DNA of 41,502 nucleotides from Thermoplasmata archaeon (GTDB taxonomy: Archaea; Thermoplasmatota; Thermoplasmata; UBA10834): positions 1 to 41,502 of the forward strand of contig JALOTO010000006.1 of NCBI GenBank assembly GCA_025457845.1. Reading direction: 5' to 3'. Below, in pieces: positions 15,253 to 30,054 of the stretch. The position numbers and the translations under genes are program-made. Position 1 is the first letter of the stretch. Every line of letters begins with the position of its first letter. The notes below the pieces were generated by a model. The model was given only the letters and a program-made list of their open reading frames with translations. It did not search any database and had not been told where the DNA came from.

Positions 15253-15294
15253 CCCATGTTGTTCAGGTGATATAATCATAGCGTCGAGGGCCGG

Positions 15295-16848
15295 TCAGCG
15301 CGAGACCAGCTTCGACATGTATGGTCCGTCCGCCGTGTACCCTAGCCGACGGTAGTACTCCCTGGCTCCCACGCCGCTCGTCACACTGACCTTCCGGAAG
15401 CCGGCCTCCGATGCGATCCTCTCGCCCTCAGCGAGGAGGCGCTCTCCGAACCCCCTGTGCTGCCAATGCTTGCCCGCCTTGCCGTCGAGCGGCGCCATCT
15501 GACCGTACACGTGCAGCTCCCGCACCCTCGCCACGTCGGTCCCGCCCCCGGGGATGCGCAGCCTCACGTAGCCGACGATGGAATCGACCGAGGCCAGTTC
15601 GAAGGAGACGAAGTGCTCGCGCCCGCCCGACGCGGCGTACTCCCTGTGCCGCATCTCGACCGGCGACTCTGGCGGGAGCTCCTTCGCGGTGGGCACGTGG
15701 CCTATCTCCCTGCACCTGATGCATCTGCACACCCCCCCGGCATCCTTCAGGTGGGCGAGAGCCAGCTCCCTGAGGTGGCTCTTCCTCACCCCGGCCTCGA
15801 TGAGCTGCACCGGTATGTCGCGCTGGACCCTCAGTATCCTGACCCATTCGGGGACGGCCCTCTTCATGTCGGCGACGAGCGCGGTGGTCTCCTCCAGGGA
15901 CATGGGGGTGTACCGGCCCTCCTTCCAGAGGTCGTACAGCCCGGTCCCCTTGACCACGAGCGTGGGGTATATCTTCAACATGTCAGGCATGAACCGCTCG
16001 TCCTCGAAGAGCGACCTGAAGGACGCGAGGTCCTTCACGGGGTCGGACCCAGGGAGCCCGGGCATCATGTGGTAGCAGACCTTCAGGCCGGCGTCCTTGG
16101 CTCGGCGCGTCGCGTCCACGACCTCGTGCACGTGGTGCCCCCTCTTGACGCCGTCCAGTATCCCATCATCGAGGGATTGGACCCCGAACTCGACCTTGGT
16201 GGCGCCGAGCGCGAGCGAGTGTTCCAGTTGCTCCGCCCCGAGCCAGTCAGGCCGCGTCTCGACCGTCAGTCCGACGCACCTCGCAGGGGCCGTCTCGTTC
16301 GCGGCGTGGGCAGCGGCGAGGTCCGGCGACTCCACGCCGTTCATCGCATCGAAGCAGCGCTTCACGAACCAGTCCTGGTACTCGATGGGACGCGAGGTGA
16401 ACGTGCCGCCCATGACGATCAGGTCGACCTTGTCCGTCCTGTGGCCGATGGCGTTCAGCTGGTCGATGCGCGCCTTGGTCTGCCTGAACGGGTCGTAGCC
16501 GTGCATCTCCGCGCGCCTTGCCGCGGGTTCCTTGCCCGTGTATGACTGCGGCGTGTTGTTCGTGACACCGCCAGGGCAGTAGATGCACCGGCCATGAGGA
16601 CAATCGTAGGGGCTGGTCATCACCGCGACGGGGGCGACCCCGCTCATCGTGCGCACTGGCTTGTTCCTCAGGACGCCCTGCACGCCTTCGCGCAGCTCCT
16701 CGGGGATGCGCTCCAGGATCTCGTGGTTCGTTGGGACGCGGCTGGCCCCGTGCTTCCTGCAGAGGCGGACCTTCAGCCGCATGAGCTCCTCCCTGGTGCT
16801 CGCCTCGCCAGAGATGATGGCGCTGGCGAGTTCGTCCAGGAGGTCCAT
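15295..16848 (-). CDS. elp3: tRNA U34 carboxymethyltransferase Elp3
   Basis: 517 residues. Elp3 uses radical SAM chemistry and acetyl-CoA to build the cm5 group on the wobble uridine of tRNAs. The radical-SAM cluster is C83, C88, C91 in CPHGRCIYCPGG. The core includes VMGGTFTSRP and VEFGVQSLDDG, and the C-terminal GNAT domain (about 400-517) has HRGFGERLL as its acetyl-CoA loop. A second cysteine group, CRCIRCREIGH, fits the Elp3 zinc site. Archaea have Elp3 without the other Elongator subunits. No clear ribosome-binding site; a TATA-like GATAAGTA about 30 bp upstream suggests a short-leader transcript. Confidence 0.95.
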   Translation of the reverse strand: MDLLDELASAIISGEASTREELMRLKVRLCRKHGASRVPTNHEILERIPEELREGVQGVLRNKPVRTMSGVAPVAVMTSPYDCPHGRCIYCPGGVTNNTPQSYTGKEPAARRAEMHGYDPFRQTKARIDQLNAIGHRTDKVDLIVMGGTFTSRPIEYQDWFVKRCFDAMNGVESPDLAAAHAANETAPARCVGLTVETRPDWLGAEQLEHSLALGATKVEFGVQSLDDGILDGVKRGHHVHEVVDATRRAKDAGLKVCYHMMPGLPGSDPVKDLASFRSLFEDERFMPDMLKIYPTLVVKGTGLYDLWKEGRYTPMSLEETTALVADMKRAVPEWVRILRVQRDIPVQLIEAGVRKSHLRELALAHLKDAGGVCRCIRCREIGHVPTAKELPPESPVEMRHREYAASGGREHFVSFELASVDSIVGYVRLRIPGGGTDVARVRELHVYGQMAPLDGKAGKHWQHRGFGERLLAEGERIASEAGFRKVSVTSGVGAREYYRRLGYTADGPYMSKLVSR

Positions 16849-16897
16849 GCCAGAGGCTACGCTGGCTCCTGATATCTACTTATCGGAAAACCAGACA

Positions 16898-17185
16898 TCA
16901 CTGGTACATCAGCGCGTCGTAGATGTCCTCCGGCTCGTCCCCCGTCTTCGGCCGCGGCCTCCTCTTCGGGTTCACGTCTATGTCGGGGACCAGGAGGCGC
17001 ACGTAGGTCTTGTCTGGGAGCGGCTCGAGCGCGACGACGCCCTTGACGACAAGGGCCTTGAGGAGCCTCTGGAGCGTGTCCATTCGCATAGAGAGCTCGT
17101 CCCTCAGCTCCTCCGTCGTGATAGGGTACCAGTCCTTGACGACCGCCATCACCCGGAGCTCATCCTTGCTCAGACGGATCTGCAT
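16898..17185 (-). CDS. Small winged-helix protein
   Basis: 95 residues. The N-terminal two-thirds predict a winged helix (LSKDELRVMAVVKDWYPITT, then LRDELSMRMDTLQRLLKAL and a wing VVKGVVALEPL). It ends in a basic RRPRPK segment and an acidic tail. Probably a DNA-binding regulator, targets unknown. Third gene of a three-gene operon, 4 nt after its neighbour. Confidence 0.65.
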   Translation of the reverse strand: MQIRLSKDELRVMAVVKDWYPITTEELRDELSMRMDTLQRLLKALVVKGVVALEPLPDKTYVRLLVPDIDVNPKRRPRPKTGDEPEDIYDALMYQ

Positions 17186-17189
17186 GGGC

Positions 17190-17477
17190 TCAGCCGAAGT
17201 AGACCGCGTTGGAGTCCTTGTCCTTCTTCTCCTCTTCTGGCTTGGCCTCGTTGAGGACGTCGATAGATAGGATCATGTGCGAAGGTATGAGCCGGAGCAT
17301 CCCGTTCACCTCGCCCAGCTTCTTCTCCAGTTCCATGACTATCGCGGTGTCGTGCGCGATGGCCGCGTATCCCTTGAACATCCCCACCGTCTCCATCGGC
17401 TTGTCCCTGGACTCGAGACTCCTGATCCTGTACGTCGAACCAGGCGTCAGTACAACGGCCTCATCTTTTCTTGGCAT
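17190..17477 (-). CDS. Small conserved-looking protein, function not recognised
   Basis: 95 residues from MPRKDEAVVLTPGSTYRIRS to NAVYFG. The pattern alternates short beta-like strands (MFKGYAAIAHDTAIVMELE, then LIPSHMILSIDVL) with a charged C-terminal tail, reminiscent of a small beta-barrel such as an Sm-like fold; this is only a guess. ATG 17477 is used; it lies inside the end of the upstream regulator gene (17-nt overlap), implying translational coupling. Sandwiched between two winged-helix genes, it may partner one of them. Confidence 0.6.
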   Translation of the reverse strand: MPRKDEAVVLTPGSTYRIRSLESRDKPMETVGMFKGYAAIAHDTAIVMELEKKLGEVNGMLRLIPSHMILSIDVLNEAKPEEEKKDKDSNAVYFG

Positions 17478-17940
17478 GCCTCTCACCCTTCTTGCTCGCG
17501 AGTTCCTGGAGGTGGTCCACCGTCTTCCGGTAGTTCTCCATGGCCACCTGGACATGGGCCTCGGTGAAGTTCCAGGCCTTGCTCAGGTTGCCGTATCTGA
17601 TTCGGTATCCCTTCTTCGTCGACCCGTCCGGCTGGTCCACGTTCATGTCCTCGAGGAGGTCGAACCCCTTGAGCTTGTTGATGTGCCTGTAGACCGTGGC
17701 CTTGGTTGTCCCAAGGGAGACGGCGAGGTCCTCGACGACCCATGCCTTGTCCATCCTCAGGAGGAAGTGGTCCACCAGCAGCTTGTACGGGACGCTGTCC
17801 CGGATGTCCGTAGCATCGGTCTTCGGGTCGTAACCCTTCGGGAAATAACCCACCTGATTGAGGAAGAGGAGCGCCACCTCGTCGATGTTGCTGAGCGGCG
17901 TCAACGGCGTGTTGCTGACGACATTTAGCTCGAAGCTCAT
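17461..17940 (-). CDS. Winged-helix transcriptional regulator
   Basis: 159 residues. A central winged HTH (DKAWVVEDLAVSLGTTKATV, then RHINKLKGFDLLED) with a wing that includes GSTKKGYRIRYG, followed by a helical C-terminus ending in basic KKGERHAKKR. It resembles MarR/ArsR-like archaeal regulators that lead short operons. It probably regulates this three-gene unit or acts with the two small proteins. Effector unknown. Confidence 0.7.
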   Translation of the reverse strand: MSFELNVVSNTPLTPLSNIDEVALLFLNQVGYFPKGYDPKTDATDIRDSVPYKLLVDHFLLRMDKAWVVEDLAVSLGTTKATVYRHINKLKGFDLLEDMNVDQPDGSTKKGYRIRYGNLSKAWNFTEAHVQVAMENYRKTVDHLQELASKKGERHAKKR

Positions 17941-18095
17941 GCTGGTTGTAATCGGACCGACAATAGTTAATGGTTATGCTAGAGTCCGCGCTAACGAACT
18001 CTGCCGCGCCCTGCGCAAACAGCGTGCCGCGTCATTGGCGACGGCCAGCCGGAGTCTGCTCTGCCTCGCTCGACAGTGGTCGGTCCGCGTCGGAA

Positions 18096-19073
18096 TCAGC
18101 TCCATATCAGGATTCGGTGGCAGAGGCCTTTCTGCCTTTGGCCTCGGACTGGACCTACTGGACGGACGATAGATGCCATCAAGACAATGGCCCCGACCGC
18201 GGCAACGACTGAACCGACGCCGATGCGAACAGCCAGTCCGTCGAGCCATGTGTATGCAACGTAGCTGCTGGATGGAACCAGGACACTGGACCAGAACAGG
18301 GCCAAACCGGATAGAGTTCCCAGTCCCCCCAATGGTGTCACGATTGAGAGCAGTGCCCCGCCCACGAGTAGGATGGACACTGCGAACAGAACGGAGGGGT
18401 CTACTCCCGTGACAGCCGGGATTGTCGCCCCTTCAAGGTCCAACCCCCCGCTGAGATAACTGGATGGGTACTCTTCGCTCATCGAGTAATCGTTTCTCAT
18501 CATAATTGCATTCGGGAGAGCAAGGGACATGAGGACCAGGCAAGCGCCTATGAATGCTAGCAGGTTCACCCTCGCGCTCATCACGTCGTCTTGACGGAAC
18601 GTGAATAACCGCCCGTACAGACCATCCATCTTCTTCCACGTCCGCCCTCCGATTGGGAGGATCAGACCGATGAGGACTATGGCCGACGAAAGAAGCGCTA
18701 TCCACACTCCATACTCCATCTCGAACATGACCCTCCTGCTGGTGTATGTGAAGTCAAGGCCGATGGAAATCATGAAGGATGGGACTGAGACTGCCTGGGC
18801 AAGGCCACATATCGGTGAGTGAAGAGACAGGAAGGCGCTGGCCACGAACACGACCATCAGCATCAATGAAATCATTTGAATGGGGGTCGTGGCCCAGGTA
18901 ATGCCTCTCTCACCAAGGAAGAGATCCGCTGGTGAGCTGAGCTCTTCCGCGGTAGCGGGATCATACGACGTCGCCGGCCCGACTATGGTCATCGAATACC
19001 AAGGCAGCATCGATGCGAAGATGCCGAGGATTGCTCCCAAGACCACGAAGAGATTGAAGTCCCATTTCCTCAA
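18096..19073 (-). CDS. Multi-pass membrane protein of unknown function
   Basis: 325 residues with about seven to eight hydrophobic helices, beginning MRKWDFNLFVVLGAILGIFA. The first extracellular-side loop (about 30-60) is polar. The last 20 residues are basic and not hydrophobic (VRGQRQKGLCHRILIWS), unlike the rest, so the tail may be read-through of a shifted frame. Codon use looks less GC-biased than the neighbours, which might mean a transferred or relaxed gene. I do not recognise the family. It stands alone between the winged-helix operon and the ABC importer. Confidence 0.55.
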   Translation of the reverse strand: MRKWDFNLFVVLGAILGIFASMLPWYSMTIVGPATSYDPATAEELSSPADLFLGERGITWATTPIQMISLMLMVVFVASAFLSLHSPICGLAQAVSVPSFMISIGLDFTYTSRRVMFEMEYGVWIALLSSAIVLIGLILPIGGRTWKKMDGLYGRLFTFRQDDVMSARVNLLAFIGACLVLMSLALPNAIMMRNDYSMSEEYPSSYLSGGLDLEGATIPAVTGVDPSVLFAVSILLVGGALLSIVTPLGGLGTLSGLALFWSSVLVPSSSYVAYTWLDGLAVRIGVGSVVAAVGAIVLMASIVRPVGPVRGQRQKGLCHRILIWS

Positions 19074-19125
19074 CGGACCGCCCTCAATCTGGACTGAGCA
19101 GGACGACGCTATATGAATCGTCGCG

Positions 19126-19917
19126 TCATCCCGATGAATCCTTCGACAGTTCCCTTGCCCTCGCCTTCTCGAACTCCGCCTCGAGCTCGGCTAGAACCTC
19201 GCCGCGTATGGCGATGAACTCCTTGCTTGTCCTGTCCCTAGGCCTCGCCAAAGTGACTCGGATGTCCTTCTTGACGGTACCTGGCCTCGCGGTCATCACG
19301 ACTATCCGGTCGGCAAGGTAGACGGCTTCGTCCACCGAGTGCGTGACGAAGAGTATGGTCTTCTTCGTCTCCGTCCAGATCCGCAACAACTCCTTCTGCA
19401 TGAGGTTCCTGGTCTGCGCGTCAAGTGCGCCGAACGGCTCGTCCATGAGGAGCACTGCAGGATCGTTGGCTAGAGCGCGGGCTATTGCCACCCGCTGCTT
19501 CATGCCGCCCGACAGCTGCTTCGGATGAGAGTCTTCGAACCCCTTGAGTCCGACGAGCTCGAGAAGCTTGGAGGAAGCGTCATGTCGCTTCTCAGGTGGG
19601 ACCCCGCGTATCTCCAGGCCGAATTCCACGTTCCGCCTGGCGCTGCGCCACGGGAAGAGGGCGAACTCCTGGAAGACCATCCCGCGGTCAGGGCCGGGGC
19701 CCTTTACGGACTTGCCGTTCACGAGTATGCTGCCGCCGCTCTTTCCCTCGAGCCCCGCCACTATCCTCAGGACAGTCGTCTTGCCGCAGCCGGAGGGGCC
19801 GAGCAGGCATACGAACTCGCCCTCGGGGACGGATAGGTCGAACCCTTCGATGGCGACAAGCTGAGACTTCCCCTTCGCGAAGACCTTGGAGAGGCCCTCG
19901 ATGGATATGCCGCTCAT
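19126..19917 (-). CDS. NitT/TauT-family ABC importer, ATP-binding protein
   Basis: 263 residues that power import of a small anion or organic substrate. Walker A GPSGCGKT (40-47), Q-loop VFQEFALFPW, signature LSGGMKQR, Walker B VLLMDEPFGALD and H-loop THSVDEA are all present; it is closest to the SsuB/TauB/NrtD group. Start ATG 19917 (MSGISIEGLSKVF) has no strong ribosome-binding site. It lies two bases after the stop of a 22-codon mini-frame created by the 70-bp tandem duplication, so translation probably depends on reinitiation. Last gene of the importer operon (binding protein, permease, ATPase). Confidence 0.92.
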   Translation of the reverse strand: MSGISIEGLSKVFAKGKSQLVAIEGFDLSVPEGEFVCLLGPSGCGKTTVLRIVAGLEGKSGGSILVNGKSVKGPGPDRGMVFQEFALFPWRSARRNVEFGLEIRGVPPEKRHDASSKLLELVGLKGFEDSHPKQLSGGMKQRVAIARALANDPAVLLMDEPFGALDAQTRNLMQKELLRIWTETKKTILFVTHSVDEAVYLADRIVVMTARPGTVKKDIRVTLARPRDRTSKEFIAIRGEVLAELEAEFEKARARELSKDSSG

Positions 19918-20016
19918 TTCATCCCCATCCATCTGTACAGCCGGTCGCGAAGACCTTGGAGAGGCCCTCGATGGATATGCCGCTCATTTCATCCCCATCC
20001 ATCTGTACAGCCGGTC
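19875..20016. repeat. Perfect 70-bp tandem duplication at the permease/ATPase junction
   Basis: The 70 bases at 19875-19944 are repeated exactly at 19945-20014, with two further matching bases. Each unit contains the last codons of the permease, the stop/start ATGA and the first 14 codons of the ATPase. Zero mismatches means a very recent event or an assembly error. Confidence 0.95.
19919..19987 (-). other. 22-codon mini-ORF produced by the tandem duplication
   Basis: The duplicate ATPase start (ATG 19987, overlapping the permease stop as ATGA) reads MSGISIEGLSKVFATGCTDG then two more codons and TGA. The stop is separated from the true ATPase ATG (19917) by one base, giving TGAAATG. It is thus a truncated copy of the ATPase N-terminus placed as an overlapping leader frame. 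Whether it is translated is unknown. Confidence 0.6.
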
Positions 20017-20805
20017 TTCGAAGAATCCTGCGATGCCTGTCGTAAGGGTACTCAGCAGTCCTATGACTATCATGCCCGCGAACATCAGGTCGTACTGGCT
20101 TGAGCCGGCCTTCGAGAAGATGTAGAATCCGACGCCGCCTCCGACATTGCCCAGCATCTCGGCGGCGACGATGCACATCCATCCGACTCCCAGGCCGACC
20201 TTCACTCCCGTCATGAAGTACGGAACGGTGAATGGGAGGACCACCTTCGCGAAGATGTGGACTCTCCTTGCGCCGAGGGTTCGAGCTGCATCTAAGAGGA
20301 CCGGGTCGACGGTCTTCACTCCGAAGATGACATTGAGGAGGACGGGGAAGAAGATGCCCAGGAAGACGATGGCGACCGGCCCCCAGACTATTCCGAACAC
20401 TACCAAGAAGATTGGAATCCAGGCCAGAGGAGGGATCGGCCTGAACATCTCGACGATTGGCTTTCCGGCCGCCTCGGCCCCTCTTAGGCTGCCCATGAGC
20501 AATCCGATGGGCAATGCCAGGCCGACGGCGAGAGCGAAACCGAACGCAATGCGCTTCATACTAGCCCAGATGTGATCCGTCATGTAGACGCCGGACTGCG
20601 CATCCTTCACAGTGAATGACTGTATGAGTGCGTCCAGCACCTCGGCGGGAGGCGGCACATACTCATAGAGGCCGGGCGAGGTGGCACGCAGGTACGCCGA
20701 GAAGAGATGCCATCCGATTATGAAGACCGAAAGGGAGAGCAGGCTGAGGGCGACCCTTTGCCAGTTGGCCGCGAACCACTTCTTCAGCTCCTGCTCAACG
20801 GCCAT
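19984..20805 (-). CDS. NitT/TauT-family ABC importer, permease
   Basis: 273 residues, the membrane subunit of the importer. Six or so transmembrane helices and a BPD_transp_1 (SsuC/TauC/NrtB-like) core. The EAA loop that docks the ATPase is DAARTLGARRVHIFAKVVLP. The N-terminus is a cytosolic amphipathic stretch (MAVEQELKKWFAANWQR). The stop TGA overlaps the first copy of the ATPase start. It follows the binding-protein gene by about 54 nt. Substrate cannot be assigned; sulfonates, taurine, nitrate or thiamine precursors are all carried by this family. Confidence 0.92.
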   Translation of the reverse strand: MAVEQELKKWFAANWQRVALSLLSLSVFIIGWHLFSAYLRATSPGLYEYVPPPAEVLDALIQSFTVKDAQSGVYMTDHIWASMKRIAFGFALAVGLALPIGLLMGSLRGAEAAGKPIVEMFRPIPPLAWIPIFLVVFGIVWGPVAIVFLGIFFPVLLNVIFGVKTVDPVLLDAARTLGARRVHIFAKVVLPFTVPYFMTGVKVGLGVGWMCIVAAEMLGNVGGGVGFYIFSKAGSSQYDLMFAGMIVIGLLSTLTTGIAGFFEDRLYRWMGMK

Positions 20806-20859
20806 CGACGGTTCACTTCCTCAGCCCTGATGCTGTGTCCGGAGATAGAGGTTTGGGGG

Positions 20860-21981
20860 TCATGCCGGCCTTATGGTCAGCTCGAACCCCGAATCCTTCA
20901 GCGCTGACTTCAGCAGAAGGAACTGTATCGAACTCTCGGAGGGCACGGCGACGGTCTTGTTGACCAGGTCGTCGAACGACTCGATTCCGGAGCCGATCTT
21001 CACGACTATGGCGCTACCCTCACTGTTCGCCTGAGCGACCATCTTTGCCCCTATGTTCCCATTCAGATGCTTGAATATCGCGGGAGCACAGCCGAGGTAG
21101 CCGATGTCCACGGTGTCGGTTGTGATTGCGTCCATCACTGCACCGCCTGCTGCGAATGGGGCCCCGGTCGCGTTGACTACGTTTAGGCCGTACTTCTCGA
21201 AGATGCTCCCATCACCCAGGACCCGTGGGTCCATGGCGACGACCTTGGCCATCTGGTGCAGATCCGCTGTCAGATACCCGACGTGAATCGGATCGTCCGG
21301 GTTCAGTATGGTGTCGCTCGGCTCGATGGTTGCCGCAGCGGTGAGGTAACTCTCGTCAACGTAGGTGTTGGCGAAGTCCGACACGCCATCATAGCCACGT
21401 TCCGTGATGGTTTCGTTGGTCGTAACATTCAGCTCTATGTACATGTCAGTGAACGTCTCGATGGCCGACACGAAATCGTCGTCCATCTCATATCCATAGA
21501 ACATGTGCTCGAAGGCCGCGGTAAGGACGTCTTCTGACTTGCTCGTGAACTCCATCGCGAGCGTCATGAGGAGGGAGTAGTTCTCGCCCTCTGGGTCGGA
21601 GAGAGCTGACATCACCCAGTCCGTCGCATCCATGTGTGCCCTGACGAAGCGCTGAGTCAGCATCTCTGCGCCTTCGACATCGGCAAGGAACGCCGTCGAG
21701 GCGGCGACGACACAGCACGGGTGGTTCGGCATCAGGTCGCCCGACCACATCATCACCTCACCCTCGCCGCTGACGACCGCATCGGAGCAGAAAGGCTCCC
21801 AGGAAATGAATGCGTCGATGTCGCCATTCGCCAGCGCGGCCTTCATCCCGGTCACGGGGAGGACCGTGTAGTGTACTGTGCCACTGGAGTCCCTGTCCAG
21901 CAGCAAAGCCGCTGCGACGACGCCGACCACGATTGCTGCTACGACCACGACCGCTAGGATGATCTTCAGGTTCTTGTCCAT
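20860..21981 (-). CDS. ABC substrate-binding protein with circularly permuted lobes
   Basis: 373 residues: an N-terminal membrane anchor (about 7-28, no lipobox cysteine), then two halves of an NMT1/SsuA-like binding protein in the reverse of the usual order. Residues about 36-225 are the second lobe (ALANGDIDAFISWEPF, then MPNHPCCVVAAS). Residues about 233-373 are the first lobe (HVGYLTADLHQMAKVVA, VDIGYLGCAPAIFKHL, KTVAVPSESSIQFLLLKSAL). The protein stops just where the second lobe normally begins. ATG 21981 is supported by a TATA element at 22011-22020. It captures the substrate outside the membrane for the permease and ATPase downstream. Family secure; permutation inferred from family knowledge. 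Confidence 0.88.
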   Translation of the reverse strand: MDKNLKIILAVVVVAAIVVGVVAAALLLDRDSSGTVHYTVLPVTGMKAALANGDIDAFISWEPFCSDAVVSGEGEVMMWSGDLMPNHPCCVVAASTAFLADVEGAEMLTQRFVRAHMDATDWVMSALSDPEGENYSLLMTLAMEFTSKSEDVLTAAFEHMFYGYEMDDDFVSAIETFTDMYIELNVTTNETITERGYDGVSDFANTYVDESYLTAAATIEPSDTILNPDDPIHVGYLTADLHQMAKVVAMDPRVLGDGSIFEKYGLNVVNATGAPFAAGGAVMDAITTDTVDIGYLGCAPAIFKHLNGNIGAKMVAQANSEGSAIVVKIGSGIESFDDLVNKTVAVPSESSIQFLLLKSALKDSGFELTIRPA

Positions 21982-22010
21982 GAGTAGACCCAAGGAAACG
22001 ATGCCGCTGC

Positions 22011-22020
22011 GGATTATAAG
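22011..22020 (-). promoter_or_regulatory. TATA-like element of the importer operon
   Basis: CTTATAATCC on the minus strand, about 30-39 nt before the binding-protein ATG, gives a leader of about 10 nt. There is no Shine-Dalgarno sequence at that start, consistent with such a short leader. Confidence 0.5.
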
Positions 22021-22053
22021 GATTTCCCACAGTTGTCGCCCGTTAGTGGTACA

Positions 22054-22069
22054 AGTGTATAAATACACT
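22054..22069. promoter_or_regulatory. Palindromic operator overlapping a TATA box
   Basis: AGTGTAT-AA-ATACACT is a perfect 7-bp inverted repeat around AA. It contains TATAAATA, correctly placed (about 30 bp) for transcription of the XRE regulator starting near 22088. A protein bound here would block TBP, so it is a good autoregulatory operator candidate. It may also affect the divergent importer operon. Confidence 0.6.
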
Positions 22070-22098
22070 GTCAGTTATTGATACTATGAGGACAATTA

Positions 22099-22620
22099 AT
22101 GGATTCGAAGAGACTCCTCGTCTCGGCTGCCTTGGAATCGGACGAGAGCTTCAGGAAGGCCCTCGGGAAGACCCTCGAGGACTTCGGCATGACCGTGCAG
22201 GACCTCGCGCACAAGTCCGGTGTTTCACCCAGCACGATCTACAAGATAATGAACGAGGACCGTTCGCCAAGCCTCGACATACTCAGGAGGATCGTCTCTG
22301 CCGTGCGCGGGAAGGAGGGCGGAAGGGCTGGCAACTTCATCGCGCTCATCGTCACGAGGCAGGTTCTGGACGAGGTCGTCGAGAGGTCGGTCCGGGTGGG
22401 AGATGAGACCGTCAGGGTCAGGGAGTACCCAGCGATGACTGTCGAGGATGCGATTGTGGCGGCGATAAGGGCGGAGCGCGACGGCGCAATCGCGGTCGTG
22501 TGTGCCCCCATAGTGAGCCCGACCATCGAGAAGATCCTCGACATACCGATCGCCACAATAGTCCCTCGGGACAGCGTGACTGAGGCAATCAGACTGGCTG
22601 CGAAGAAGTCCAAAGACTAG
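22099..22620 (+). CDS. XRE-family transcriptional regulator, probable controller of the importer
   Basis: 173 residues. The N-terminal HTH (about 20-70) reads MTVQDLAHKSGVSPSTIYKI with a following SPSLDILRRI. The C-terminal domain (about 85-173) alternates strands and helices (DAIVAAIRAERDGAIAVVCA, ILDIPIATIVP). It looks like a small-molecule sensing Rossmann-like domain comparable to the PrpR N-terminal receptor; this resemblance is tentative. It is divergent from the importer operon and has a palindrome over its own TATA box, both pointing to local regulation. GAGGA precedes the ATG. Its TAG stop and the amidotransferase stop share the palindrome CTAG. Confidence 0.8.
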   Translation: MDSKRLLVSAALESDESFRKALGKTLEDFGMTVQDLAHKSGVSPSTIYKIMNEDRSPSLDILRRIVSAVRGKEGGRAGNFIALIVTRQVLDEVVERSVRVGDETVRVREYPAMTVEDAIVAAIRAERDGAIAVVCAPIVSPTIEKILDIPIATIVPRDSVTEAIRLAAKKSKD

Positions 22621-23357
22621 ATGATCTTCCTTCGAGTCACTCTGAGGTCAAGTCCAACGGTGACCAATTCGCCGTCCTCGACCTCGGAAGTCTGCCCATC
22701 CACCGCGCAGCCGTCGGGGACCTCCTGGTACAGCATTACGTCCGTGCTCCGAACCGCCAACCTCAGCTTGTAGTACCATTCCCAGCCGGGCTCATTGACC
22801 TTCCTGAAGCCTATCAGATTCTGACCGTCGGAGACCAGGAGTATCATCCCCCGGAACGAGGCATCCTTCAGGTCCTCCTTGACAAGGGTCGCGACCGCGC
22901 CGCCCAAGTCTCCGGTGACGGCGTACCTGTCTGCGAGCAGCATGAGAAGCTTTTCGCTATCGGTCTCTCCCTTTGGCGACTGGGCGGCCGAGGGGATATT
23001 GCCGTTCACCGTCCCGTTGTGCGCCAGCACGAGCTGGCCCGAGATGAATGGATGGGTGTTCTTGAGAGAGACGCTCCCGGCTGATGCCGCCCTCACATGT
23101 GCTATGAGGATGCTCGGGGGCTCGATGCCTTCAACATCCCCCGCCGCGGAATCATACGAGGGATCGACGTGAGCGGGTCTTTCGCTCTTGCCAATCTGCG
23201 TCGGCGAGCCGTCAGTGAATGCAACGATACCCCACCCGTCCCTGTGACCCGGCTCCTCCTCCTCGGGAATCCTCCCGGTCCTGGCAACCTCCCTCAGGGC
23301 ATGCAGAGATTCCATCGGGAACCTGGAGCTGAAGACCACCCCAACCATCCTGCACAT
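22617..23357 (-). CDS. Class II glutamine amidotransferase (GATase_4/YafJ type)
   Basis: 246 residues. Class II amidotransferases release ammonia from glutamine using an N-terminal cysteine nucleophile. Here the start MCRMVGVVFS puts Cys at position 2, exposed after Met removal. GHRDGWGIVAF, AHVRAAS, THPF and LAHNGTVNG are the other family blocks. There is no synthase domain, so the acceptor is unknown. ATG 23357 is chosen because it gives Cys2 and has GAGGTG upstream. It lies 10 nt after the OsmC gene, in the same operon, and converges on the XRE gene with a 4-nt stop overlap. Confidence 0.88.
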   Translation of the reverse strand: MCRMVGVVFSSRFPMESLHALREVARTGRIPEEEEPGHRDGWGIVAFTDGSPTQIGKSERPAHVDPSYDSAAGDVEGIEPPSILIAHVRAASAGSVSLKNTHPFISGQLVLAHNGTVNGNIPSAAQSPKGETDSEKLLMLLADRYAVTGDLGGAVATLVKEDLKDASFRGMILLVSDGQNLIGFRKVNEPGWEWYYKLRLAVRSTDVMLYQEVPDGCAVDGQTSEVEDGELVTVGLDLRVTRRKII

Positions 23358-23367
23358 CTGCCACACC

Positions 23368-23784
23368 TCACTCCATGACCTTCGGGACGACATCGACCTG
23401 AAGGGCCATTGAATTCGTGACCAGACATCTTCGCTTGGTCGCGTCAATCGCCTTCTCGAGGTTGGCGAGGTTCGACCCGGGTGCGAAGCGCATCTCCGGA
23501 CGGAGCGTGATCTTCACGAACTTCTTCGCCCCGTCGACGGTCTGCAGGTCGCCGACGGCGGCGCACCTGTAGTCGGTCAGTGTCATGCCCAGGCCCTTCG
23601 AGACGCTCACGAAGACGATCTGGAAGCACATGTTGGCCGCGCCAACGAACGCGTCCTCAGGGGTCATGGGCCCCTTCATGCCGCCGAGCTCCACTGGCGG
23701 CGAGTACGTGACGGTCATCCCGTTCTGCCCGTCCATCTTCGCAGGGTATGAGCCAGTCCACTCTACCTTGGTCTCGAAATCCAT
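23368..23784 (-). CDS. OsmC/Ohr-family protein
   Basis: 138 residues. The OsmC/Ohr family reduces organic hydroperoxides with two conserved cysteines, here C53 (AANMCFQIVF) and C120 (TKRRCLVTNS), in the expected positions. The conserved acidic residue in MTPEDAFVGA is also present. Length is typical. The TATA element GTTTATCC (minus, 23813-23820) puts the transcript start about 10 nt before the ATG. Probably an operon with the amidotransferase, which begins 10 nt later. Some family members have other thiol roles, so peroxidase activity is inferred. Confidence 0.88.
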   Translation of the reverse strand: MDFETKVEWTGSYPAKMDGQNGMTVTYSPPVELGGMKGPMTPEDAFVGAANMCFQIVFVSVSKGLGMTLTDYRCAAVGDLQTVDGAKKFVKITLRPEMRFAPGSNLANLEKAIDATKRRCLVTNSMALQVDVVPKVME

Positions 23785-23859
23785 GGGTATCAGGGCTCGG
23801 AGCCGTTTGGCCGGATAAACAATTTGCGCACGATATCCAGCATTCGCTCACATGTTGGA

Positions 23860-23873
23860 TAAGAAAAAGAAGA
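23860..23873 (-). terminator. U-rich terminator after the thioredoxin gene
   Basis: On the minus strand the sequence after the trx stop is pyrimidine-rich and ends in TCTTCTTTTTCTTA, a run of U in the RNA. This matches the oligo-U terminators of archaea. Confidence 0.55.
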
Positions 23874-23905
23874 GGGGGTGTATGAAGGGTGTTTGGGGGA
23901 TTCGA

Positions 23906-24319
23906 TTATCTTGACAGCGATTTCCGGATCTGGCTCTCGATTGCGGGCCTCGGGAGCGCGCCCACGGTCTTGTCCACCAGCTGTCCGTTCTTGAAGTAGA
24001 GCAGCGTCGGGATGCTCATGATCCTGAACTTGGACGCGGTCTCGAAGTTCTCATCGGTGTTGAGCTTCGCGAAGACCACCTTGCCCTTGCTCTCCTTCGC
24101 CATGGCGTCGATGGTCGGGGAGAGCATCCTGCACGGACCGCACCAAGGCGCCCAGCAGTCTACGACGACGTTCTCGTACCTCTTGACGAACTCCTCGAAG
24201 CTGGCATCGCTCACGGGGACCGGCGCTTCCGGGTAGGACGTCGATGCGCCCGGTGGGCTGGTCTTGTTCATCATCTCGGCCATCTTCTTCGCCCGTATCT
24301 GCTCGATCTCCGATGACAT
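23906..24319 (-). CDS. Thioredoxin
   Basis: 137 residues: a charged helical N-terminal extension (about 35 residues, EIEQIRAKKMAEMMNK) and a thioredoxin fold with active site WCGPC (59-63) and the cis-proline loop SIPTLLYF. Reduces protein disulfides in the cytosol, probably recharged by the thioredoxin reductase encoded at 33542-34507. ATG 24319 is preferred over upstream in-frame codons because the TATA element GATAAAAGG (24347-24355) sits between them and it. Confidence 0.93.
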   Translation of the reverse strand: MSSEIEQIRAKKMAEMMNKTSPPGASTSYPEAPVPVSDASFEEFVKRYENVVVDCWAPWCGPCRMLSPTIDAMAKESKGKVVFAKLNTDENFETASKFRIMSIPTLLYFKNGQLVDKTVGALPRPAIESQIRKSLSR

Positions 24320-24346
24320 GTGTGATTCCGACCTTGCACGCTTGTG

Positions 24347-24355
24347 CCTTTTATC
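24347..24355 (-). promoter_or_regulatory. TATA box of the thioredoxin gene
   Basis: GATAAAAGG on the minus strand. Transcription would start near 24325, a few bases before the ATG at 24319; it excludes the longer reading frame. Confidence 0.55.
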
Positions 24356-24456
24356 TGCATTACCGATTGGAGGTGCCGTACTTAACCGTTGCGACGAAAT
24401 GCCCCGGGAGCGGACCAAGACGTAGTCTTGAGGGTGGAATACTGGATTAGACAAAC

Positions 24457-24464
24457 TATTTAAA
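24457..24464 (+). promoter_or_regulatory. TATA box of the second PRC-barrel gene
   Basis: TATTTAAA, 35 bp before the ATG at 24499; transcription would start near 24486. Confidence 0.55.
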
Positions 24465-24498
24465 CGGAGAATGGCGATACGGTCGATAGGGATGCAGG

Positions 24499-24789
24499 AT
24501 GCTCGAAGAGGCTTCTGAACTCATTGGACTGCAGGTTTACACTAACCAGGGGATATTCCTCGGGAACATATCCAACCTCGTTGTCGAGGTTGACGAGAAC
24601 AAGGTGCAGGGGCTTTTCATAACGAACACGAACCCGCTGCTCGTCGAGGGGTCGAAGTCGGTGAACGTGCCCTTCAGGTGGATCTCGTCCGTCGGGGACA
24701 TCGTCATACTGAAGTACTTCCCCAAGAGGGTCGCCCTCAAGAGGGGGGCCTCCAAGCCCAAGGCCGAGAAGGTCGCTGTTCCAGAGTAA
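24499..24789 (+). CDS. PRC-barrel domain protein
   Basis: 96 residues, one PRC barrel (LIGLQVYTNQGIFLGNISNL, then GLFITNTNP and WISSVGDIVILKYFP) plus a short basic tail rich in Lys and Ala. It resembles the archaeal PRC-barrel proteins found near translation and RNA-processing genes, but no function is proven. A Shine-Dalgarno-like GGGATGCAGG precedes the start. The carbonic-anhydrase-like gene follows 33 nt later. Confidence 0.8.
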   Translation: MLEEASELIGLQVYTNQGIFLGNISNLVVEVDENKVQGLFITNTNPLLVEGSKSVNVPFRWISSVGDIVILKYFPKRVALKRGASKPKAEKVAVPE

Positions 24790-24822
24790 GGGATTTATCG
24801 TACGCTCACGCTCTCGCGTGAC

Positions 24823-25332
24823 ATGACCGAACCGAAGGTCGACCCATCCTGCTACGTCGCGAAGGAGTCCGTCATAATCGGCGACGTCGTCATCGAGAAG
24901 GGTTGCAGCATCTGGCCATTCGCCGTCATCAGGGCTGACATGTCGCCGGTGAGGATCGGCGAGGGATCGAGCATCCAGGAGCACTGCCAGATCCACGGGA
25001 ACCCGGGTAAGCCGACCATAATCGGCAAGGATGTCTCCGTTGGCCACGGGGCCATCATCCACGCGGCGAAAGTCGGGGACCTGGTCATCGTGGGAATGAA
25101 CTCGTGCATACTCGACGACGCGGAGATCGGCCCGGGTTCCATCATCGGTGCCGGGGCCGTAGTCAGGTCTGGAGAGAAGGTCCCGCCAGGAAGCCTCGTG
25201 GTCGGCGTCCCGGGGAAGGTCGTCAAGCAGGGCGATCCCACCCTCGTGGAGGCGGCCAAGAGGAACGCGGAGGCCTATCACAGGCTCCGCGACGCACACA
25301 GGCGCGGGGAGTTCGCCCGGTACCACGTCTGA
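24823..25332 (+). CDS. Gamma-carbonic-anhydrase-like hexapeptide-repeat protein
   Basis: 169 residues forming a left-handed beta-helix. The three zinc-ligand histidines of the gamma-class carbonic anhydrases are present (H58, H75, H80), as are R37, D39 and Q52 in the places of the Cam catalytic Arg, Asp and Gln. Length is that of CamH/YrdA-type proteins, which lack the acidic loop of Cam. It may hydrate CO2 or may be an acyltransferase-like or metal-binding relative; activity in this subgroup is uneven. Confidence 0.82.
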   Translation: MTEPKVDPSCYVAKESVIIGDVVIEKGCSIWPFAVIRADMSPVRIGEGSSIQEHCQIHGNPGKPTIIGKDVSVGHGAIIHAAKVGDLVIVGMNSCILDDAEIGPGSIIGAGAVVRSGEKVPPGSLVVGVPGKVVKQGDPTLVEAAKRNAEAYHRLRDAHRRGEFARYHV

Positions 25333-25389
25333 GGCACCCGTCCCACGGACGGGATTCCATTAATGTCCTGCCCTGCCGATTCCCCCCTC

Positions 25390-25938
25390 ATGACAGAGGA
25401 GGGAGTGACGGTTTGGGATGCGGTCTCTTCCCGGAGGAGCGTGAGGGCCTTCGAGAAGAGAGCCGTCGAGAAGGAGAAGCTCATGAAGTGCCTGGAGGCC
25501 GCCAGGCTGGCGCCGTCGTGGGCCAACAAGCAGTGCTGGCACTTCGTCCTGGTGAACGGCGCGGAGAAGGTGGCCGAGCTGGGGATACTACCGTCCCACA
25601 TCAAGGACACCCCGGCGGTGATCGTGGCCTGCGGCGACCCCGAGAAGAGCGGGGACATCGACGAGAAGAAGTACTACCTCGTCGACGTGGCGATCGCTGT
25701 CGAACACATCGTGTTGCAGGCCGTCGAACTGGGCCTCGGGACGGTCTGGGTCGGGGCCTTCAGGGAGGACAAGATCAGGACGGCCCTCGGGATACCGCGG
25801 AACATCAAGGTCGTCGCCATACTGCCCATCGGTTACCCCGCAGCCAAGGAGGGGTTGACGAGCAAGATCCTCAAGGCTACTGTCGGGAGCAAGTCCAGGA
25901 AGGAGATGGCAGAGATCGTCCACTTCGACAAATGGTGA
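25390..25938 (+). CDS. Nitroreductase-family flavoprotein
   Basis: 182 residues. FMN-dependent nitroreductase fold: N-terminal SSRRSVRAFEKRAV (FMN phosphate contacts), LAPSWANKQCWHFVLV, and a C-terminal GYPAAKEGL block. These enzymes reduce nitro groups, quinones or flavins with NAD(P)H; the physiological substrate is not evident. ATG 25390 is preferred over ATG 25363 because a weak TATA-like CCATTAATG at about 25356-25363 would start transcription near 25383. The HD gene converges on it with a 6-nt gap. Confidence 0.85.
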   Translation: MTEEGVTVWDAVSSRRSVRAFEKRAVEKEKLMKCLEAARLAPSWANKQCWHFVLVNGAEKVAELGILPSHIKDTPAVIVACGDPEKSGDIDEKKYYLVDVAIAVEHIVLQAVELGLGTVWVGAFREDKIRTALGIPRNIKVVAILPIGYPAAKEGLTSKILKATVGSKSRKEMAEIVHFDKW

Positions 25939-25944
25939 GGGCAC

Positions 25945-26460
25945 TCATTGGATCTCATCGAGGTCGACACCGCACGCGCGGGAGAGCTCCTCGTGCAGGG
26001 CCCTGATCCTGCTCGCGGCCTCGGGGCTCACACGTCTGGCGACGTCGGCTATGGCGACTTCCAGGCTCACGCGGCCGCTGGCCGCTATCAGGTTGTCGGC
26101 CTGCGCGACCACCTTCTCCTCGAGTGTGATCGGGATGTAGTCCTTCTCCGGGAGTCCGAGCTGGCGGGCATCCGACCTCGTCAGGCCGGCCCCTATGTGC
26201 CTCTCGACTATGCTCACGAGCTCGGGTGACAGGCCCATATCGGATACGGTCTTTGCCCCCTCGACTGCGTGCATCACCGAGTGGGTCCTGCACCGCCCTA
26301 TGTCGTGGAGGAGCGCCCCGGCCTCCACGAGCTGGGGGTCCGCGCCGCAGCGCCTCGCGATCTTCACCGCGAGTTCGGCCACTGCCTCGCAGTGCTCGAT
26401 GACGTTCTCCGGGCACCCATTCGCCCTCAGCATGGAGAGGCACTCATCTCTTGTCGGCAC
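25945..26460 (-). CDS. HD-domain (HDIG) protein
   Basis: 171 residues of a family of small archaeal HD proteins. Metal ligands: the early histidine in IEHCEAVAEL (H23), LLHDIGRCRTH with the HD pair at 52-53, HAVEGA, and the late acidic residue in VVAQADNLIA. HD proteins hydrolyse phosphate esters of nucleotides; the substrate here is unknown. GTG 26460 is used because VPTRDECLSMLRANGC matches the usual family start. It overlaps the end of trm56 by 17 nt, so the two genes are coupled. ATG 26433 is an alternative. Confidence 0.82.
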   Translation of the reverse strand: MPTRDECLSMLRANGCPENVIEHCEAVAELAVKIARRCGADPQLVEAGALLHDIGRCRTHSVMHAVEGAKTVSDMGLSPELVSIVERHIGAGLTRSDARQLGLPEKDYIPITLEEKVVAQADNLIAASGRVSLEVAIADVARRVSPEAASRIRALHEELSRACGVDLDEIQ

Positions 26461-26968
26461 CCTTCGCCCTGTCGACAACCGTCTTCCCCCTCGGGTTCGG
26501 CAACACCCGGAGCCGGCCCTTGAAGTCCTTGTCGAGGGTCTTCCCATTGGTGAGCCGGTCCATGAATATGGCCAACGCAGCAACCTCGGAGTGAGGCTGG
26601 TTACCCACCGAGATGTTCCTAGTCGCGAGGTCGTAGACCTCGCGGGGGACCTTCTCCGCCCCGACGACGATCATGAGGTCCTTGGCCTCGACCGTGGGCA
26701 TGGCCTTCGCGATGCTCTCACCATACATGGTGAGATGGACGACCTCGCCCTTCCACGCCTTGATAGCCGCCTTCCAACCGACCCCCGTCTTGATCTCGAA
26801 CTTGCCCCCGAACCGGTCCACGACGCTCCTCACGGTCCTCTCGAGCGGCTCGTCCGCGGTCGTCACCCAGATGGCGTCGGCGCCCAGCGCCCTGGCCGTC
26901 AGCGCCACGTGCGTCGTGACCCGCGCGTCCCTCTTCGGACGGTGACCGAGCCTGAGAACTACGATCAT
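26444..26968 (-). CDS. tRNA (cytidine(56)-2'-O)-methyltransferase Trm56
   Basis: 174 residues. An archaea-specific SPOUT methyltransferase that methylates the 2'-O of C56 in the T-loop using SAM. MIVVLRLGHRPKRDARVTTH followed by ALTARALGAD is the family signature; the SAM knot is around HLTMYGES and MIVVGAEKVPREVYDLA. Length is typical (about 175-180). A longer frame upstream exists but reads into Arg/Ser-rich antisense sequence, so ATG 26968 is right. The ArsR-like gene lies 22 nt upstream and the HD gene overlaps downstream. Confidence 0.93.
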   Translation of the reverse strand: MIVVLRLGHRPKRDARVTTHVALTARALGADAIWVTTADEPLERTVRSVVDRFGGKFEIKTGVGWKAAIKAWKGEVVHLTMYGESIAKAMPTVEAKDLMIVVGAEKVPREVYDLATRNISVGNQPHSEVAALAIFMDRLTNGKTLDKDFKGRLRVLPNPRGKTVVDRAKGADKR

Positions 26969-26990
26969 GCACCGCCCCTGTGGTCGACGG

Positions 26991-27491
26991 CTACTCCTTG
27001 ACCCTCTCGATCCTGTGGCCGCGGTAGTCGAGCTTGTTGCTCCTCTTGACAAGGCTCTTGAGCATGGTGAAAGTGACGCCCAGCACCTCTGCGACGTCCC
27101 CGGCGAACTTCCCCTGGGGGCCCACGAGGTCGAAGATCTGCTTCTCGATCTTCGCGTACTCCTTCTCATCCATCACGGCGGCGGCCAGCACATCGCTTAT
27201 CTCGTAGACCGGCCAGGATGCGTTGATGTGGAACGAGGTGTAGTAGGTGTGATAGGCCTTCTCGGGCTGCTGGAGGTCGGCGGAGGTCTGCCAGCGCGTC
27301 TCCACGAGCTTCATCTTCTCGAAGAACAGAAGGGCGTCCTTGCCCGCGGGTCCGAACTGCTTCTCGATCTCCCTCACTGTGTGCCATTCCAAGGTGACGA
27401 GCTTGAGGACCTCGCGTTTGACCTTGGTATCAACCGCCCGGAACATCGGAACTAGTTCTGCCGGTTCGGTTATGACCTTAATCCTAGTCAT
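26991..27491 (-). CDS. ArsR-like winged-helix regulator
   Basis: 166 residues. An N-terminal winged HTH (VDTKVKREVLKLVTLEWHTV, then REIEKQFGPAGKDALLFFEK), a middle segment of aromatic residues (YHTYYTSFHINASWPVYEIS), and a second helical region (YAKIEKQIFDLVGPQGKF) that resembles another HTH. It is a conserved-looking neighbour of trm56. Possibly a regulator or a general transcription-associated factor. The TATA element CCTTATATGC (27515-27524) implies a leader of only a few bases. Confidence 0.75.
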   Translation of the reverse strand: MTRIKVITEPAELVPMFRAVDTKVKREVLKLVTLEWHTVREIEKQFGPAGKDALLFFEKMKLVETRWQTSADLQQPEKAYHTYYTSFHINASWPVYEISDVLAAAVMDEKEYAKIEKQIFDLVGPQGKFAGDVAEVLGVTFTMLKSLVKRSNKLDYRGHRIERVKE

Positions 27492-27514
27492 GGGCGTGCC
27501 CTATCTAAGTGTGG

Positions 27515-27524
27515 GCATATAAGG
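27515..27524 (-). promoter_or_regulatory. TATA box of the ArsR-trm56-HD operon
   Basis: CCTTATATGC on the minus strand, 24-33 nt before the ATG at 27491, so the transcript is leaderless or nearly so. Confidence 0.55.
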
Positions 27525-27678
27525 CTAATTGGAGAGGAAACAGAGGTTCGAAAACATACTGGCTCATGTCGAAAATTGCGGCGCGACGATGCCCACCAGA
27601 GGCTCCGCCGAACCCCGCGGATTGGGGCGACCTTTATGTAGGAGAATCGTCTTCGCTCGCATCGCAGAGTGTGCTCCC

Positions 27679-27972
27679 ATGATGGCAAAGGACCTCAAGG
27701 ACAAGATGAAAGTCGACGAGATCACCCTGACAGTCGTGGAGAAGAAGGAGCCAAGGGAGTGGAAGTCGGGGTGGAGCGGGGCCGGCGGGCGGGTCTGCGA
27801 CGCGACCGGGGAGGACGGTAACGGCGACAAGGTCTCCCTCAGCCTGTGGAACGACGACGTGGACAAGGTCAACGTCAACGACCGCATCAAGATCACGAAC
27901 GGGTGGGTCTCCTCCTACAAGGGGAACCTGCAGCTCAGCGCGGGCAAGTTCGGCAAGCTCGAAGTCCTCTGA
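27679..27972 (+). CDS. Single OB-fold nucleic-acid-binding protein (SSB/RPA-like)
   Basis: 97 residues. One OB fold with the archaeal SSB/SOSS-B pattern: VDEITLTVVEKKEPREW, GRVCDATGEDGNGDKVSLSL, VNVNDRIKITNGWVSSYKG and LQLSAGKFGKLEVL. It binds single-stranded DNA or RNA. There is no acidic C-terminal tail or zinc finger. ATG 27679 (or the next codon, ATG 27682) is preferred over the far-upstream frame start because the TATA-like CTTTATGTA (about 27630-27638) lies just before it. Confidence 0.85.
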   Translation: MMAKDLKDKMKVDEITLTVVEKKEPREWKSGWSGAGGRVCDATGEDGNGDKVSLSLWNDDVDKVNVNDRIKITNGWVSSYKGNLQLSAGKFGKLEVL

Positions 27973-27987
27973 CCCGGTCGACGGGGC

Positions 27988-28557
27988 TCAGATTTCTGAC
28001 AACGCCCACATAAGTAGCCCTGGCACTACGACCATCAGGAAGTCATCGTCCACCCGTGGGACCTTCCACCGCTCCACGGCGACGGCGGACACCGCCCCGA
28101 CGAGACTGAGCACGGCTACGAGCCGCCAATCCAGGTACCCGAAGGCCGACAGGACCACTGCCGATATGACCGAGTACGCGAGGATTGGCACCAGGACCGA
28201 TGCACGACCCTCACCCCTCACCTTCCTGATCTCCCCCGCCAACGGGTCCACGAGGGCCATGCCGACGATGGATACCGACGCGATGTCCCTCGGGAAGACC
28301 CAGAGTGCGACCGTTATCCCAGCAGCAGTCCACACGAACGAGGCTATGGTCTTGGCTTCGTGCTGCCTCAGGCCGAGGAACGTCACCCCGAACCTTAGCC
28401 GCAGGACCTCGATGGCGACGACGGCCCCGAGGAAGAGGATCAGGCCGGACCACCGGGGGATGCCCAGGTAGGGGATCTCCTCGGGGACGACGTAGTACAG
28501 CGGTGCCAGCCCCGCCATCATGTGGATGGCGCGCCTGAGAAGGTGACCTCGGTCCAT
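27988..28557 (-). CDS. Dolichol/phytol-kinase-like membrane protein
   Basis: 189 residues with about six transmembrane helices. It matches the CTP-dependent polyprenol/phytol kinase and CDP-diglyceride synthase superfamily: N-terminal basic R-R-x-x-H (HLLRRAIHMM), a central VDPLAGEIRK and a C-terminal VDDDFLMVVVPGL, like the DDN...P block of SEC59/VTE5 proteins. Probably phosphorylates an isoprenoid alcohol (archaeal polyprenol lipids or dolichol recycling). Substrate is inferred from the family. Confidence 0.72.
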   Translation of the reverse strand: MDRGHLLRRAIHMMAGLAPLYYVVPEEIPYLGIPRWSGLILFLGAVVAIEVLRLRFGVTFLGLRQHEAKTIASFVWTAAGITVALWVFPRDIASVSIVGMALVDPLAGEIRKVRGEGRASVLVPILAYSVISAVVLSAFGYLDWRLVAVLSLVGAVSAVAVERWKVPRVDDDFLMVVVPGLLMWALSEI

Positions 28558-28603
28558 CTGCTGCCCGTGGCTAATCCGCCTGAGGCCCAGATAACCCTTC
28601 GCC

Positions 28604-30049: not shown

Positions 30050-30054
30050 CAGCC

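Follow-up and report, generated by a model that had tools for sequence, protein, structure and literature searches.

A circularly permuted NMT1_2/SsuA-type substrate-binding protein from a Thermoplasmata archaeon, in a family whose cut site has probably moved more than once

Why would a substrate-binding protein (SBP) of an ABC importer carry the two halves of its chain in the reverse of the usual order, and how could such an order arise? Here, we address these questions for a gene at positions 20860 to 21981 (- strand) of a 41,502-nucleotide stretch of DNA from a Thermoplasmata archaeon (contig JALOTO010000006.1), hereafter the window. We propose, with a probability of about 0.87, that the gene encodes the Venus-flytrap SBP of a NitT/TauT-like ABC importer with a circularly permuted chain, and that it belongs to a family that was re-cut at other sites. 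What is new is less a single permutation than a family whose cut moved repeatedly, leaving a readable trail.

The open reading frame is unbroken (ATG at 21981, stop at 20860, 373 codons) and encodes an intact protein of 373 aa, which sequence, profile and alignment place among circularly permuted NMT1_2/SsuA-type SBPs. Its parts, all on the - strand, begin with an N-terminal membrane anchor helix that has no lipobox cysteine (residues 4-29; 21895 to 21972; sequence and model helix). Profile matches and the alignment to SsuA then define block B (residues 34-228; 21298 to 21882), the canonical second half, which here comes first and contains GDIDAFISWEPF (the WEPF region) and PNHPCCVVAAS, and block A (residues 230-371; 20869 to 21294), the canonical first half, which here comes last, contains HVGYLTADLHQ, DIGYLGCAPAI and SSIQFLLLKSAL (the SSIQFLLLK region), and is followed by the stop. 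Spacing and alignment place the linker region in which the ancestral C- and N-termini meet at approximately residues 216-231 (21289 to 21336). The initial annotation had described the order anchor, B block, A block, stop, with joins at about 21870-21880 and 21285-21295; the order is borne out by the open reading frame, profiles and phmmer, and the joins agree with the mapped block boundaries.

The reversed order is also apparent from comparisons with canonical proteins. PF13379 (NMT1_2) matches the window protein at 82.5 bits (cut-off 24.7) as two stretches, and the Pfam matches above cut-off are solely NMT1_2, Phosphonate-bd and NMT1. In a phmmer comparison against the PDB, residues 274-369 align to residues 37-132 of E. 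coli SsuA (17.4 bits) and residues 39-83 to residues 137-181 (11.1 bits). Later residues thus match the earlier part of SsuA and, therefore, the block order is swapped. Moreover, the cut is reciprocal: residue 33 corresponds to a start at canonical position 144, and residue 371 to an end at canonical position 143. The window protein, having the order B-A instead of the canonical order of NMT1_2/SsuA-type proteins, is a circularly permuted relative of this family and not a canonical member. The swapped SsuA alignment, the reciprocal ends and the existence of same-order homologues support the circular permutation suggested in the initial annotation.

In a model of the window protein, the secondary structure resembles that of a normal-order relative at canonical columns, and one such relative is identical to it at 64/135 positions of block A and 70/180 of block B. 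It is highly improbable that the blocks are separate modules joined in a new order with a likeness to SsuA by convergence alone. As such a scenario would have it, the model finds weak matches in sequential Foldseek and VIA comparisons; against it stand these block identities and the largely identical groups recovered by trees of block A alone and of block B alone. Because both blocks are homologous to the same normal-order proteins, we rejected module fusion and convergence. The best Foldseek matches by E-value of the confident model are ionotropic glutamate receptors (TM 0.31 or less); we regard these matches, with an rmsd of 25-33 Å, as noise of sequential alignment.

The swap of two blocks does not equate to a swap of two structural lobes, as had been supposed. 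Presumably, the SsuA-type topology puts the new ends inside lobe II, in which case blocks A and B would be sequence halves rather than the two lobes. With the ends in lobe II, the tether would hold lobe II while lobe I would be continuous, the reverse of the tethering in canonical SsuA-type proteins. Ligand capture and permease docking would proceed as usual despite the permutation.

The gene lies in an operon with genes for an ABC permease (19984 to 20805, - strand; BPD_transp_1, 71.7 bits in Pfam) and an ABC ATPase (19126 to 19932, - strand; ABC_tran, 111.4 bits in Pfam), an arrangement that recurs in many relatives. The adjoining permease and ATPase (19126-20805) mark the system as a NitT/TauT-like ABC importer. 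A divergent gene for an HTH_3 protein (22099 to 22620, + strand) is, by its position, a candidate operon regulator, and a similar-sized open reading frame occupies its place in many Thermoplasmata loci, as compared by size and position. ELP3 (15295-16848) is likewise found near the transporter in many Thermoplasmata loci, lying within a few kb of it in the window, L001-L011, L014-L017, L019-L025 and L027, among others; because this proximity is seen in many Thermoplasmatota loci, the neighbourhood looks ancestral. The open reading frame adjoining the ATPase (325 aa; 18096-19073, - strand) has several hydrophobic stretches and, like one of 612 aa (28604-30442, - strand), has no Pfam match at E≤1e-4. 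An 873-aa open reading frame (10763-13384, - strand) combines a restriction-endonuclease-like Mrr_cat domain with many TPR repeats and a C-terminal SAP domain.

Could the unusual order be an artefact of a misassembled or miscalled locus in which the real gene has normal order? A search of 5.8 billion proteins gave 350 matches at E≤1e-3 from 7999 scored candidates. Among the 120 listed of these 350 (length 362-408, 51-96% identity to the window protein), all homologue clusters share the cut site of the window protein, which answers the call for homologues of the same order, and 119 of the 120 are <90% identical to it and, thus, are other genes. In addition, the permuted order occurs in the chromosome-length records L002, L008 and L018, and permuted loci are usually arranged SBP-permease-ATPase. 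The proteins of a 39-row alignment share one collinear arrangement between anchor and stop, in which 57 columns are invariant. These independent collinear homologues refute an assembly artefact, to which we assign a negligible probability.

To describe order across the family, we used profile tests, as a strict regular-expression test passed 69/121 proteins because its patterns were too narrow, and segment order, as a doubled-sequence search with the canonical profile split matches at the anchor (52/371 permuted). A contig scan kept 79 loci, comprising 44 permuted, 33 normal and two with block B alone at a contig end. Of the permuted loci, 37 are cut at canonical position 144, five at 80 (L044 being assigned by hand) and one at 99, and one is a tandem. 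They come from Thermoplasmata including Methanomassiliicoccales, Archaeoglobi-related archaea, one Theionarchaeon and Bacillota; the normal-order loci come from Deltaproteobacteria-type bacteria, Thor-, Loki-, Borr- and Baldrarchaeota, one Anaerolineales genome and one uncultured archaeon. A census of 371 sequences holds 242 permuted, 126 normal, one tandem and two partial rows, which are non-independent in that at least 10 of the 79 locus rows match a database row exactly over a 200-residue core. The permuted rows are cut near canonical position 144 (220 rows), 80 (21 rows) or 99 (one row), with L041, L017 and P0264 all counted as cut 144: the first match of L041 begins at canonical position 121, which we read as a signal peptide aligning by chance, and in L017 and P0264 the start of the protein is shortened. 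A match to the binding protein, in either order, is present in 37/243 sampled whole genomes of the phylum of L002, which we take to be Thermoplasmatota (E≤1e-15), and in 23/246 of the phylum of L026 (E≤1e-20). Two further arrangements were observed. In P0176 (581 aa), of normal order, NMT1_2 is accompanied by two B12-binding domains, which resembles a fusion to a corrinoid protein and may stem from gene calling; and a shorter second open frame with a match to block A alone lies directly before the permuted binding protein in L026 (6016-6921).

The positions of the ends bear on how the orders arose. Most cut-144 rows start at canonical positions 142-146 and stop at 138-145, and the spacing from F203 to G235 across the linker region is 28-37 in the 220 rows; cut-80 rows start at 80-83 and, with two exceptions, stop at 79-81; and the cut-99 protein starts and stops at 99. 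The ends are, therefore, reciprocal to within a few residues, with little sequence lost or repeated, as in permutation by duplication. Later loci add 21 with cut 80, two being repeats of earlier places, and a further cut site: L102 starts past the WEP region (about canonical position 183) and ends just behind it, its last segment scoring just 18 bits and following L105 by eye. Cut 99 (L042), cut 183 (L102) and a putative revertant to normal order (L094) are found in one genome each. On a model of a normal-order protein, the cut sites fall in loops, turns or element edges (183 by eye).

The initial annotation had named tandem duplication as a natural route. In-frame tandem forms are found in relatives, though not in the window: L023 (5888-8014) is a single 731-codon open frame, stop to stop, of order B-A-B-A, and the open frames of L089 and L090 (790 and 793 codons) double the cut-80 order. 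Permutation by duplication predicts intermediates of just this sort. By this route, the gene would at each step have been duplicated, fused in frame and then trimmed of its outer parts, and a membrane anchor or lipoprotein signal would have come to lie ahead of the new N-terminus. In L023, the first copy has HPGS for HPCC and DINQ for DLHQ; the second copy keeps HPCC and DLHQ.

Trees built on block-reordered alignments indicate the sequence of events. In a careful 60-row tree rooted on normal-order proteins, the cut-80 clade (100/97) lies inside cut 144 and is adjacent to the cut-144 protein L024 (100/98). In a quick 84-row tree, built without nine redundant rows and with 31 of the 43 new loci L080-L122, the permuted clade of Methanomassiliicoccales includes L094 (SH-aLRT 99; end branch 0.74), and cut 80 includes L102 (97) and the doubled proteins (99). 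In AU tests on 60 of the 84 rows, the further 24 being left out, a position of L094 outside the permuted clade is rejected at p 0.0023, a cut-144 clade separate from cut 80 at p 0.00063 and a position of L102 outside cut 80 at p 8.9e-7; because the groups were named after the trees had been inspected, the p values err on the optimistic side. Two rows, L044 (end branch 2.22) and L079 (1.94), were removed after an 82-row tree. The block A-alone and block B-alone trees disagree in three respects: in the block A tree, P0208-type proteins fall outside the Thermoplasmatota clade, and the trees differ in the place of the Archaeoglobi/Bacillota clade and in whether the Chloroflexota-type normal proteins form one clade.

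The joints themselves carry a second record. We took the distance from Q353 to W61 as the length of the 144 joint and that from P300 to N319 as the length of the 80 joint. In all 126 normal rows the 144-joint distance is 41-47, with a median of 43 in both the Chloroflexota-type group (43-47) and the other 32 rows (41-45). In the 21 cut-80 rows, in which this joint is re-made, it is 54-56, and in further cut-80 loci and the doubled proteins 53-56. The 80-joint distance is 18-22 in 346 rows (220 cut-144, 125 normal and one cut-99). L102, with distances of 57 and 25, has longer linkers at both earlier joints, and L094, with 52 and 19, has a longer linker at the 144 joint alone; in the normal-order L095 the 144-joint distance is 43. 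The corresponding distance within the L023 tandem (Q373 to W419) is 46. Thus, longer linkers are found in relatives at joints opened by earlier orders. L094 (3900-5027, - strand), with its normal order, a 144 joint longer by nine residues and a place inside a permuted clade, is a candidate reversal.

The trees support the idea that cut 80 nests in cut 144, cut 183 in cut 80 and one scarred normal-order protein in the permuted clade. We consider it likely that permutation in one archaeal lineage was serial, leading from normal order to cut 144, on to cut 80 and finally to cut ~183, that normal order was regained once, that in-frame tandem intermediates survive and that each re-made joint has retained an inserted linker. 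That the orders instead arose independently from normal-order ancestors, none serially and with the longer joints as coincidental loop insertions, is in our estimation improbable. At least one event does look independent: cut 99 (L042) groups with normal-order proteins and is scarless, its 144-joint distance of 40 being expected if cut 99 came directly from normal order. However, the cut-80 proteins nest inside the cut-144 clade (100/97 and 100/98; AU p 0.0006) and carry inserted residues precisely at the 144 joint; in L102, both the 144 and the 80 joint carry insertions.

Cut 144 may have been reached independently in Archaeoglobi/Bacillota. We find it rather unlikely that it arose once before the split of Archaeoglobi/Bacillota and Thermoplasmatota, with the Chloroflexota-type normal clade as a reversal. 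The cut is nearly identical in both clades, a scarred reversal seems to have occurred elsewhere (L094), and parsimony is indifferent, with three normal/permuted changes on the 80-row tree under either a single or a double origin (four changes on the 82-row tree with L044 and L079); a single cut-144 clade, although 24.65 lnL worse, is not rejected (p 0.051). By contrast, the Chloroflexota-type group is scarless at the 144 joint, which speaks against a reversal there.

What the importer carries is less readily deduced. D240, H242, N319, Q353, W61, H87 and C90 are nearly invariant across the seven groups compared, which speaks for a kept ligand site; H87 is replaced in one of five P0208-type rows, and P88 and C89 in most Chloroflexota-type rows. 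Judged by their conservation, these residues may form a pocket, with HPCC (residues 87-90; 21712 to 21723, - strand) and DLHQ (residues 240-243; 21253 to 21264, - strand) as presumed pocket elements.

Neighbouring genes suggest a link to methyl metabolism. In five Bacillota loci from three assemblies (L031, L040; L033, L036; L032), the transporter follows genes for a corrinoid protein, RACo, UROD, MtrH and UROD, as labelled by similarity to the L033 proteins, which were themselves labelled by Pfam. Part of this set is visible in L038, L039 and L071, where contig ends interrupt it. In Ferroglobus L041, RACo and MtrH lie directly upstream; in Anaerolineales L043, UROD and RACo lie upstream and an MtrH-UROD fusion ~2 kb downstream, with no permease or ATPase labelled near the binding protein. 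RACo is present in 9/9 first-examined genomes vs. 1/14 control genomes and, in the Thermoplasmatota sample, in 35/37 genomes with the binding protein vs. 8/206 without it, lying 2.0-3.6 kb from the binding protein in 11/39 places. RACo matches split in two pieces were excluded from these distances, so that the nearest distance for G177 is too large; by eye, none of the split matches lies within 10 kb of the binding protein. In the phylum of L026 the association is weak (18/23 vs. 120/223, p 0.028), and among the matches listed RACo lies ~1 kb upstream in G275, G405, G434 and G459 by eye. The co-occurrence is confounded by ancestry.

Because these enzyme classes resemble those of the Mto methoxy-aromatic demethylation system, import of a methylated compound is favoured, and we see about an even chance that the ligand is a methylated organic compound, e.g., a methoxylated aromatic, feeding a corrinoid methyltransferase system. 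Somewhat short of even odds, in our view, is that the transporter carries a sulfonate, nitrate, a thiamine precursor or a metal complex and that the methyltransferase neighbours are lineage background. The best solved relatives bind taurine, alkanesulfonates, nitrate or bicarbonate; the conserved H242, H87, C89 and C90 would be compatible with a site for a metal or thiolate; and the 18 kb around the window gene (12001-30000) hold no methyltransferase genes and no RACo, UROD, MtrH or corrinoid homologue. From its position, HPCC might conceivably form a Thi5-like iron site. Against lineage background stand the sets adjoining the gene in the five Bacillota loci and, in part, in L041 and L043, as well as the short RACo distances in Thermoplasmatota. 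If the methylated-compound reading is true, methyl-using archaea would have an ABC route for methylated substrates.

Natural circular permutations often appear as isolated pairs, for which the route and the order of events must be guessed. This family unites normal order, four cut sites, in-frame tandems, an apparent scarred reversal, joint scars and a largely resolved tree; because all these forms coexist, duplication and trimming become directly testable, and one family records how proteins can be rewired with their shape kept. It also raises the question of why a shift of the chain ends and the membrane tether from one lobe to the other is tolerated by, or benefits, a Venus-flytrap protein. 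Sequential structure search, with glutamate receptors as its best matches in Foldseek, misses such permuted proteins. Among the papers listed from the openly licensed PMC literature, screened mostly at the level of titles and the beginnings of abstracts, none reports a naturally permuted SsuA/NMT1-type binding protein or a permutation in series.

SsuA, TauA, NrtA and CmpA resemble the window system in their homologous blocks, in the adjoining permease and ATPase and in secondary structure at columns aligned to a normal-order relative; however, their order is A-B, whereas the window protein is B-A with its anchor ahead of B. UROD- and MtrH-type Pfam names presumably correspond to MtoB and MtoA. 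The Bacillota neighbourhood resembles the Mto system in having a corrinoid protein, methyltransferases and a RACo-type activase; by contrast, in the parts of the Mto papers available to us, MFS transporters are proposed for uptake, with no mention of an ABC importer whose binding protein is permuted (PMC8359953, PMC8630106). The closest precedent is TpMglB-2 (Tp0684) of Treponema pallidum, described in the accessible part of its report as a lipid-tethered binding protein of an ABC importer with a natural circular permutation (“Type Ic / Cluster Bc”), which still binds ligand and changes conformation, has relatives in other treponemes and Gram-positive bacteria, and for which tethering was raised as a possible cause of the permutation (PMC4990184). 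TpMglB-2 is a Type I/Cluster B glucose-binding protein, whereas the window family has the SsuA/NMT1 fold; its moved part is poorly conserved (13% identity; PMC4990184), whereas here both blocks align well to normal-order relatives. The window protein has no Pfam match to the Type I sugar-binding family, its matches being those given above, and its family differs further in combining several cut sites with tandem and scarred forms. In L043 and L095, inspection by eye shows lipobox-like starts, so that normal-order relatives can be lipoproteins too and tethering is not by itself a sufficient explanation of the permutation. Permutation by duplication has been described for saposin/swaposin and DNA methyltransferases and, in the portion of that account available to us, predicts tandem-duplicate intermediates (PMC3320104), which are matched here by the B-A-B-A protein L023 and the doubled cut-80 proteins L089 and L090. 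In contrast to those systems, an already permuted gene here was apparently permuted again, with inserted linkers at the earlier joints.
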